Origin: an uncultured SAR86 cluster bacterium
Lineage (GTDB): Bacteria > Pseudomonadota > Gammaproteobacteria > Magnimaribacterales > D2472
DNA length: 64,000 nucleotides
Direction: 5' to 3'
Assembly: GCA_902560315.1 (NCBI GenBank)
Contig: CACELG010000001.1
Coordinates: 220,871-284,870 of the forward strand
The notes under the pieces: model-generated
Told to the model about the DNA's origin: nothing
The model's input: only the letters and a program-made list of their open reading frames with translations
Databases searched by the model: none
Made by a program: the position numbers and the translations under genes
Part shown: positions 11,628 to 14,745 of the stretch, piece by piece
Position numbering within the stretch: position 1 is the stretch's first letter
How the letters are laid out: each line of letters opens with the position of its first letter

Positions 11628-13454
11628 ATGTGTGGAATAATAGCGGCTGCTTCGAATCGAAATGTAGGTAAACTGTTAGTCCAAGGCTTACATAAAATGG
11701 AATATCGAGGCTATGACTCTGCAGGAATAGCTCTTCATCAAATAGACAAAATTGCTCATTTAAGAACTCTAGGCAAAGTTAATTTGCTAGAAGAAAAAAT
11801 GATTGCTGAAAAACCAAAAAGCAAACTAGGTATTGCTCACACCAGATGGGCAACACATGGAGAGCCTTCTGAAGAAAATGCTCACCCACACAAGTCCAAT
11901 GAAAGGGTTTACATAGTTCATAACGGAATTATTGAGAATTATTTAGATTTAAAAGAATTTCTAAAAAAAGAAGGCTACACGTTCTCATCACAAACTGACT
12001 CTGAGCTCATTGCACATATGCTTGAATATTTTCTTAATAAAGGAAATTCAATGCTTGATTCAATGTACTTAACAAAAGAAAAACTGGAAGGGGCATATGC
12101 AATTGCAGCAATAGACAAAGAGGATGATAAAAATGTAATGATAGCAAGAAGCAAGTCTCCTCTTTTAATAGGGGTGGGAGTTGATGAGTTTTTGGCAGCT
12201 TCAGACCCATTAGCAATCGGACAATTAACTAATGAATTTGTTTTTCTTGAGGATGGTGATGTTGCTGAGCTTTCATCTGAAAGCTATACGATTTATGACG
12301 CAGAAAAGACAGAGGTTCAAAGAGAAGTTACACAGATTGATATTTCTAGCCAATCAACTTCAAAGGGCGACTATAAACATTTCATGGAAAAAGAAATTTA
12401 TGAGCAACCAGATGCTATCTTGAATACCATTGATGGAAGAGTTGGCGGAGAAGATGTTTTAGATAATATATTTGGGCTTGGATCATCTGAAATATTTGAA
12501 AAAGTTAAGAGAATTCAGATTGTTGCTTGCGGAACTAGCTTGCATGCTGGAAGAGTAGCCGCTAATTGGTTTTCATCGATTTCAGAATTACCAACGCAAA
12601 CTGATTATGCTTCAGAATACAGATATAGAAACCCTCATGTTGATGAAGATTCTTTATTGGTAACAATTTCACAATCTGGAGAAACCGCTGATACCTTAGC
12701 TGCACTAAGATATGCAAAAGAAAAAAACTATCTTTCAACTTTATGCATATGCAATGTCCCAACGAGCTCACTTGCTAGAGAATCTGACTATTCAATTTTT
12801 ACAAATGCCGGTCCAGAAATTGGTGTTGCATCAACTAAAGCTTTTACTACTCAACTTGCGGCTTTAATGTTATTAGCCTTATCTTTAGCAAAAAGTAGAA
12901 AAATAAATCCAAAATTAAGAACAAGAGTTATTACAGCCTTAAGATCTTTGCCAGATACGATTCAAGAAACCCTAAAATTAAAAGACACCATTTTAGAAAT
13001 TGCTCCAGAAATAGCTAACAAAGATAATGCATTATTCTTGGGTAGAGGGATTTTTTATCCGATTGCAAAAGAAGGAGCCCTAAAATTAAAAGAAATTTCA
13101 TATATTCATGCTGAAGCATATCCCGCAGGCGAGTTAAAACATGGACCACTAGCATTAATTGATGAGGAAATGCCAGTAATTGCTTTAGCGCCAGAGAGTG
13201 AAATCGCAGAAAAGCTTGTTTCTAACTTAGAGGAAGTTAAAGCAAGAGGTGGAACTATTTATGTGTTTGCTGATCCATCAATAACAATGGATTTGAAATC
13301 AGGAAAACTAATTAATATGCCAAAATGTGATTTTCTTCTCACACCAATTATTTATACGATTCCTCTTCAGATACTTTCTTATGAAGTTGCTTTGTTAAGA
13401 GGCACTGATATTGATCAGCCGAGAAACTTAGCGAAATCAGTTACTGTCGAATAA
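11628..13454 (+). CDS. glmS: Glutamine--fructose-6-phosphate transaminase (isomerizing)
   Basis: MCGIIAAASNRNVGKLLVQGLHKMEYRGYDSAGIA; LRGTDIDQPRNLAKSVTVE C-terminus. Confidence 0.98.
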   Translation: MCGIIAAASNRNVGKLLVQGLHKMEYRGYDSAGIALHQIDKIAHLRTLGKVNLLEEKMIAEKPKSKLGIAHTRWATHGEPSEENAHPHKSNERVYIVHNGIIENYLDLKEFLKKEGYTFSSQTDSELIAHMLEYFLNKGNSMLDSMYLTKEKLEGAYAIAAIDKEDDKNVMIARSKSPLLIGVGVDEFLAASDPLAIGQLTNEFVFLEDGDVAELSSESYTIYDAEKTEVQREVTQIDISSQSTSKGDYKHFMEKEIYEQPDAILNTIDGRVGGEDVLDNIFGLGSSEIFEKVKRIQIVACGTSLHAGRVAANWFSSISELPTQTDYASEYRYRNPHVDEDSLLVTISQSGETADTLAALRYAKEKNYLSTLCICNVPTSSLARESDYSIFTNAGPEIGVASTKAFTTQLAALMLLALSLAKSRKINPKLRTRVITALRSLPDTIQETLKLKDTILEIAPEIANKDNALFLGRGIFYPIAKEGALKLKEISYIHAEAYPAGELKHGPLALIDEEMPVIALAPESEIAEKLVSNLEEVKARGGTIYVFADPSITMDLKSGKLINMPKCDFLLTPIIYTIPLQILSYEVALLRGTDIDQPRNLAKSVTVE

Positions 13455-13457
13455 AAA

Positions 13458-14435
13458 TTAGTATTTTTGTTTTTCAGGGATAACTCCTCTTACCCCACCT
13501 CTTGGATCTTTTACATCTCCATCACGTCTAGGTATTAAATGTATGTGACAGTGAAAGATTGTCTGACCTGCTGATACACCAGAATTAATTCCAATATTAA
13601 AACCTGTAATAGTTTTATCTTTCTTTTCTAAATTATGTTTAACAGAAAATAAAATTTTATTAATTGAATTGATCTCAGATTGTTCTAAATCAAAATAGTC
13701 TGACACATGTCTTTTTGGAATAACCAAATGATGACCTTTTGTAACTGGAAAATTATCTTTAATTGCAAATGCAAACTCATTCTCTTCTATTTTCTTTCGT
13801 TTTAAATTACAAAAAACACAACCTTCTTCTCGGTATTCAAAAAATTTACCAATATCGCGCAAATCAGCATTGTCCAAGTTTCTTTTTTGCCTATTACATG
13901 TATAACAGAGTGACTGAAGGTTTGATATATCATTTGAACCACCCTTAGACCTGGGTATTATGTGGTCAACATCGAGACTTTTTTCTTTATTGCTAATTCC
14001 ACATAGTTCACATTTGCCTTTTGCACGTTTCAAAACCTCATATCTTATACTTCCTGGAATAGGGTCATTAGAAAGATGTCTGTGTGACCAAATCCTTTCA
14101 CCTCTCTTTTGGATGTACTCAGATATTTTTAAGTCACAAATCTTAATAAGTGATTTTTGTTGATCTTTTGAAAGTTTGTCAAAACCATCTAGACAATATT
14201 TTGACCCCTCTTTGGAAGTTATCTTTCTGTTTTTGGTTAATACTTTTCCAACCATATTTTTGGTCACTAACTCATAGTATTCTTTTTGACTTGTATCATA
14301 AGAGAGAAGATCTTGTGCAATTCTGGATATTTCTGCTGATCCACCATGTTTTAAAAGTGTTTTGATCATTACTGGTTGATAGATGTGAGACATTCTCATA
14401 TCTTTTTGCAAGAAATCTTTTAATTTTTTATACAT
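13458..14435 (-). CDS. Fusion protein: N-terminal putative winged-helix region, HNH endonuclease domain, C-terminal HIT domain
   Basis: CELCGISNKEKSLDVDHIIPRSKGGSNDISNLQSLCYTCNRQK (HNH with CxxC pairs), then CVFCNLKR...HLVIPKRHV...GQTIFHCHIHLIPRRDGD (HIT HxHxH) in one ORF. Confidence 0.88.
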   Translation of the reverse strand: MYKKLKDFLQKDMRMSHIYQPVMIKTLLKHGGSAEISRIAQDLLSYDTSQKEYYELVTKNMVGKVLTKNRKITSKEGSKYCLDGFDKLSKDQQKSLIKICDLKISEYIQKRGERIWSHRHLSNDPIPGSIRYEVLKRAKGKCELCGISNKEKSLDVDHIIPRSKGGSNDISNLQSLCYTCNRQKRNLDNADLRDIGKFFEYREEGCVFCNLKRKKIEENEFAFAIKDNFPVTKGHHLVIPKRHVSDYFDLEQSEINSINKILFSVKHNLEKKDKTITGFNIGINSGVSAGQTIFHCHIHLIPRRDGDVKDPRGGVRGVIPEKQKY

Positions 14436-14514
14436 GCTAAAATTATCTCATAATAAATTTGGGTGGGGTAAGAATACTCTGCTACTGTGGAGTAGATAAA
14501 GGTGTCTACATAAT

Positions 14515-14667
14515 ATGAGTAAAAAATTATTAATTTCTAATTCAATTATGTGGGCAGCAGCAATCCTTGTTGTTGCTATAGTTGAAGATAAACAGTTTGC
14601 AATTTTGATGCTTGTTGTATTAGCAACAACTTCATTAATGTTTTTAAAGAAAGGAAATAAGGTATAA
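14515..14667 (+). CDS. Small (50 aa) predicted membrane protein
   Basis: MSKKLLISNSIMWAAAILVVAIVEDKQFAILMLVVLATTSLMFLKKGNKV; two hydrophobic stretches; not in the supplied ORF track. Confidence 0.5.
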   Translation: MSKKLLISNSIMWAAAILVVAIVEDKQFAILMLVVLATTSLMFLKKGNKV

Positions 14668-14674
14668 TTAGTTT

Positions 14675-14722
14675 ATGTGTGATTGTTGTGATTGCTGCGA
14701 GTGTTCTTGCTGCTCTAAATAG
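14675..14722 (+). CDS. Candidate Cys-rich micropeptide MCDCCDCCECSCCSK (15 aa, 8 Cys)
   Basis: ATG TGT GAT TGT TGT GAT TGC TGC GAG TGT TCT TGC TGC TCT AAA TAG; TATAAT at 14663-14668 and an inverted repeat at 14725-14745. Confidence 0.45.
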   Translation: MCDCCDCCECSCCSK

Positions 14723-14724
14723 TA

Positions 14725-14745
14725 AAATTTAATAGCCTTAAATTT
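14725..14745. terminator. Inverted repeat AAATTTAA-TAGCC-TTAAATTT between the Cys-rich ORF and the convergent cyclase gene
   Basis: Perfect 8-bp AT-only arms with 5-nt loop between two convergent ORFs; terminator function is inferred. Confidence 0.35.

Follow-up and report, generated by a model that had tools for sequence, protein, structure and literature searches.

A 64,000-nucleotide stretch of DNA (the window) from a 1.08 Mb genome of SAR86, a widespread uncultured lineage of the surface ocean, contains a very short and strikingly Cys-rich open reading frame. Six-frame reading places it at 14675–14722 on the forward strand, from an ATG start to a TAG stop, encoding the 15-residue peptide MCDCCDCCECSCCSK with eight Cys. 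The first-pass annotation had reported this frame and considered its Cys density beyond chance, and our re-reading bears out both points. The Cys fraction of 0.53 compares with 0.25 in the runner-up among 1147 ATG-initiated mini-ORFs of 8–45 codons in the window, and a chance origin is excluded. The flanking genes also lie where they had been described. The locus comprises the following features.

14515–14667: 50-residue ORF, upstream of the micropeptide gene
14658–14662 (+): extension on the 5′ side of the −10 box, agreeing with the family consensus TRGTT at −17 (T) and −16 (R) and continuing with AGG
14663–14668 (+): predicted −10 hexamer TATAAT, separated from the ATG by 6 nt
14675–14722 (+): micropeptide gene, MCDCCDCCECSCCSK plus TAG stop, pattern CxCCxCCxCxCC; recognised from its sequence, its homologues and Cys codons conserved in an ascertainment-free set
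14725–14732 and 14738–14745: 8-bp inverted repeat AAATTTAA/TTAAATTT, 3′ of the stop codon
14755–15693 (−): convergent cyclase gene (PF04199), downstream

The perfect inverted repeat noted earlier does exist in the window. It is probably incidental, since the sequence after the stop codon is not conserved in relatives; as a terminator it was rejected, being made of A and T only and likewise unconserved. An Rfam search returned nothing credible.

Distribution and selection of the peptide gene

The eight-Cys pattern matched 74 of 204 genomes of the order. Removal of one genome whose only match was of the repeat type left 73 genomes and 74 loci, one copy per genome except for a single genome with two. 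Matches of the CTG-repeat type (G130:C12, G137:C26 and G141:C1) and one promoter-pattern match (G137:C19) were judged to be chance and excluded. The genuine loci fall in families f1, f3 and f4 of the order, and no genome sampled from family f2 gave a match. In the genus, 18 of 34 genomes carry the pattern, each in single copy, including 5 of the 6 genomes that are at least 90% complete; the reversed pattern matched nothing in the same 34 genomes, and a pattern-free DNA search of the genus was positive in 19. The lack of a match in 131 of the 204 genomes, many of them incomplete, and throughout f2 indicates that the peptide is dispensable in some relatives. Outside the order, the ATG-anchored pattern had no match in thin samples of 369 genomes from the class and 399 from the phylum, for which the reversed-pattern controls also stood at 0. 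The peptide is therefore restricted to the order in the samples searched, and its distribution may be wider. A phage origin was rejected on a search of phage records, which gave no match.

Because a search with the eight-Cys pattern itself forces Cys conservation, the search was rerun with the promoter, the ATG and the first three Cys only. Across the 64 genuine matches of this independent test, 319 of 320 later Cys codons were kept, with both synonymous codons in use (TGC 235, TGT 84). Conserved Cys codons and synonymous change in relatives, which had been proposed as a check on the frame, are thus both present. The sole loss is a TGA at Cys13 in genome G003, where the copy (L129) is shortened to MCDCCDCCECSC, either through a nonsense mutation of recent date or through an error in sequencing. 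In the pattern-selected set, which was used for the codon-position count, positions 1 and 2 of the Cys codons are invariant across 49 distinct sequences and position 3 varies. This confinement of change to the third position leads us to reject the suggestion that the locus is a non-coding element.

The rest of the peptide varies within narrow limits. It is 14–19 residues long, with 1–6 residues past the last Cys and a TAA, TAG or TGA stop. The spacers consist only of D, E, S, T, N, K, Q or Ala, so that hydrophobic residues are absent beyond a few Ala, and no aromatic residue occurs in 73 aligned copies. Such restricted spacers fit the peptide itself being functional. One copy (L145) carries an insertion of two codons just behind the ATG and keeps the frame. 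Homology, the reading frame and purifying selection are established by these computations, and the unannotated micropeptide family is real. What stands of the earlier interpretation is a real, probably leaderless micropeptide with conserved Cys codons, and metal chelation stays plausible; of its two alternatives, a regulatory leader is less likely and a non-coding element is rejected.

Promoter and genomic surroundings

In 61 of 73 loci, 6 nt separate the −10 box from the ATG, which places the box at −12 to −7 when the A of the ATG is counted as +1, compared with TATANT at the same distance in 8 of 558 neighbouring genes. This is the ordinary promoter numbering with +1 at the ATG, and in the window the A is the 7th nucleotide after the box. 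Given this spacing, the mRNA is probably leaderless. A leaderless start, earlier offered as possible, is strongly predicted from promoter position. Position counts over the 73 loci gave the consensus TRGTT upstream of the −10 box and no clear −35 element. Two natural variants bear out this mode of expression. The copy with two added codons (L145) retains the distance between box and ATG. Another copy (L123) instead has TTGACA-17-TATAAT, a longer leader and a Shine-Dalgarno-like GAGAGG before the ATG, an arrangement that supports translation.

In the 14 genus genomes with both genes on one contig, the peptide gene follows glmS on the same strand at a distance of about 1–12 kb, and its neighbours in the genus form a variable block of small genes. 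Near-copies of the glmS 3′ end (AAATCAGTNACNGTNGARTAR) occur in the window at 13434–13454 and 14475–14495, in the same direction and at gene boundaries downstream of glmS, and are also found at L010, L014, L016, L017 and L127; relatives contain up to four per 6 kb. Matches with at most 4 mismatches numbered 37, against 10 in shuffled sequence. Insertions recurring at the 3′ end of glmS, in the manner of attTn7-type sites, may be how the small-gene block grows.

The 50-residue membrane ORF upstream (MSKKLLISNSIMWAAAILVV...) has no Pfam match; a search of 60 genomes showed it to be conserved in 8, the window's own counted. Its contexts differ (L010–L017), some relatives having flanking GTGTCTAC/GTAGACAC inverted repeats and glmS-end copies, and it was discarded as a fixed partner since it occurs in relatives without an adjoining peptide gene. 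MerC, about single-copy per genome, has a gene within some 3 kb in 32 of 74 peptide loci, which at first suggested a link to metals. HXXEE, a control family of unknown function, co-occurs with the peptide in 30 genomes and is found within about 3 kb of it in 27 of them. As this control clusters equally closely, we read the proximity of MerC as a shared hot spot and only a lead, and rejected MerC as a functional partner. Near four loci (L090, L101, L106 and L110), a recurrent gene pair (clusters c4 and c17) encodes a small PepSY_TM protein together with a protein rich in His and Met that has no Pfam match, possibly a metal-related module. In the window itself, the reverse-strand frame at 13458–14435 is a fusion of 325 residues that joins an HNH endonuclease domain to a HIT domain.

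Proposed function and rival readings

The reading we favour, and hold to be fairly probable, is that of a stand-alone, leaderless gene whose product binds soft metals like a one-cluster metallothionein. Its own promoter would yield an mRNA starting at the ATG or within a nucleotide or two of it, and translation without a leader would produce a hydrophilic, presumably cytosolic peptide of 14–19 residues. With the thiolates of its eight Cys, arranged as CxCCxCCxCxCC, the peptide would wrap around a soft metal, namely Cu(I), Zn(II), Cd(II) or Hg(II), and would serve in metal buffering or detoxification. Leaderless translation, the cytosolic location, metal binding and the choice of metal are all features that we infer. 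Metal binding is plausible from the chemistry of the sequence and from comparison with metallothioneins, for which CxC, CC and CxCC are the metal-binding motifs. The peptide shares their broad traits, with 8 Cys in 15 residues, CxC, CC and CxCC motifs and no aromatics. The SAR86 genomes are about 1 Mb in size and their encoded proteins contain about 1% Cys; that so Cys-expensive a peptide is kept in them suggests a real need. We therefore put forward, as a proposal about evenly balanced between right and wrong, that the shortest gene-encoded metallothionein known is a SAR86 product, a peptide of 14–19 residues with one metal cluster, translated from a leaderless mRNA and overlooked because it falls below annotation size limits. 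No paper naming both SAR86 and metallothionein was found in the literature searched. If the proposal is true, a conserved 15-residue product with 53% Cys would be smaller than any natural metal-buffering protein known so far. The family also illustrates that ORFs far under annotation limits can be clearly under selection.

A regulatory reading was weighed against this one. The frame could be a leaderless, Cys-rich uORF that senses Cys supply or metal, the speed of the ribosome through the Cys codons controlling the downstream gene in cis; the metal-sensing leader peptide raised by the first-pass annotation is of this kind. What keeps this reading alive is an excess of same-strand next genes, 70 of 74 loci compared with 82.5% in the background. 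However, the next gene is convergent in the window and in three other loci, and the next genes belong to about thirty unrelated families, none of them for Cys synthesis. The median gap to the next same-strand gene is 68 nt, compared with the usual 15 nt. A hairpin or terminator downstream of the peptide was detected in 1 of 74 loci (mean fold z −0.25), and the spacers are constrained, which a codon-sensing leader would not need. Given this variety of next genes from genome to genome and the lack of a conserved hairpin, we consider a sensing leader unlikely.

The peptide could instead handle thiol redox, persulfides or Fe-S, with the Cys array storing or passing on sulfur or electrons and metal binding secondary. 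This reading draws on the same sequence evidence as the metallothionein-like one: a peptide with 8 Cys among its 15 residues could just as well act in redox or sulfur chemistry, and vicinal CC pairs are redox-active in principle. Against it, no sulfur or Fe-S genes recur beside the peptide loci, and metal-thiolate clusters typically show such an alternation of CxC and CC. We regard it as decidedly unlikely.

A very short conserved peptide near variable small genes would also accord with a signal, or with the precursor of a peptide that is secreted or modified (RiPP-like), but the peptide lacks a leader region and an export signal, and neither a modifying enzyme nor a transporter recurs beside it, making this highly improbable. 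Finally, the +2 frame here does read as hydrophobic residues, a known source of TGY runs. The idea of an artefact, with the runs being either a hydrophobic segment read out of frame or part of a non-coding element, is refuted by codon-position conservation and has next to no likelihood: start, stop and promoter all match the peptide frame, the two-codon insertion preserves it, and only a single truncated copy was seen.

Comparison with known systems

The metallothionein-like peptide that we favour can be set beside several known systems. Phytochelatins are also short, acidic, Cys-rich chelators; they are made enzymatically from glutathione with gamma bonds, whereas the SAR86 peptide is gene-encoded. 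If our reading is right, the peptide would resemble bacterial metallothioneins of the SmtA/BmtA type (PF02069) in being a bacterial, cytosolic, Cys-based metal buffer. PF02069, however, is a 51-position model, and 15 residues do not reach the length of that fold. No match above the cut-off occurs in the 34 genus genomes; sub-threshold matches of up to about 20 bits, against a cut-off of 33, fall in an ORF of about 72 residues elsewhere in the genome. Thus, we do not file the peptide in this family, and it may still work like a bacterial metallothionein.

Among regulatory systems, the mycobacterial polycysteine sORFs are reported to regulate the downstream gene by attenuation (Canestrari et al. 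2020). They resemble the peptide gene in being leaderless (predicted here), short and rich in Cys codons, and differ in that the SAR86 peptide gene has a varied or convergent next gene and constrained spacers; the consistent co-directional target expected of a polycysteine attenuator was not found in the 74 loci. CruR (DUF2946) is a copper-responsive uORF of 145 residues, exported, with a CXXC and a RAPP stall motif and first in its operon (PMC9426467). It too is a small bacterial ORF, with Cys implicated in its metal response, whereas the SAR86 peptide has 15 residues and neither RAPP motif nor export signal.

The fungi Neurospora crassa and Agaricus bisporus have copper metallothioneins that formerly counted as the shortest, with 26 residues and 7 Cys in the pattern X2-CXC-X5-CXC-X3-CXC-X2-C-X3; their copper binding has been measured (PMC4755600), whereas metal binding by the SAR86 peptide is a prediction. 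They are nearly twice as long, their Cys pattern differs, and no sequence homology can be claimed. Like the SAR86 peptide, they are very short, ribosomally made and built from CxC units with small or polar spacers, without a hydrophobic core.
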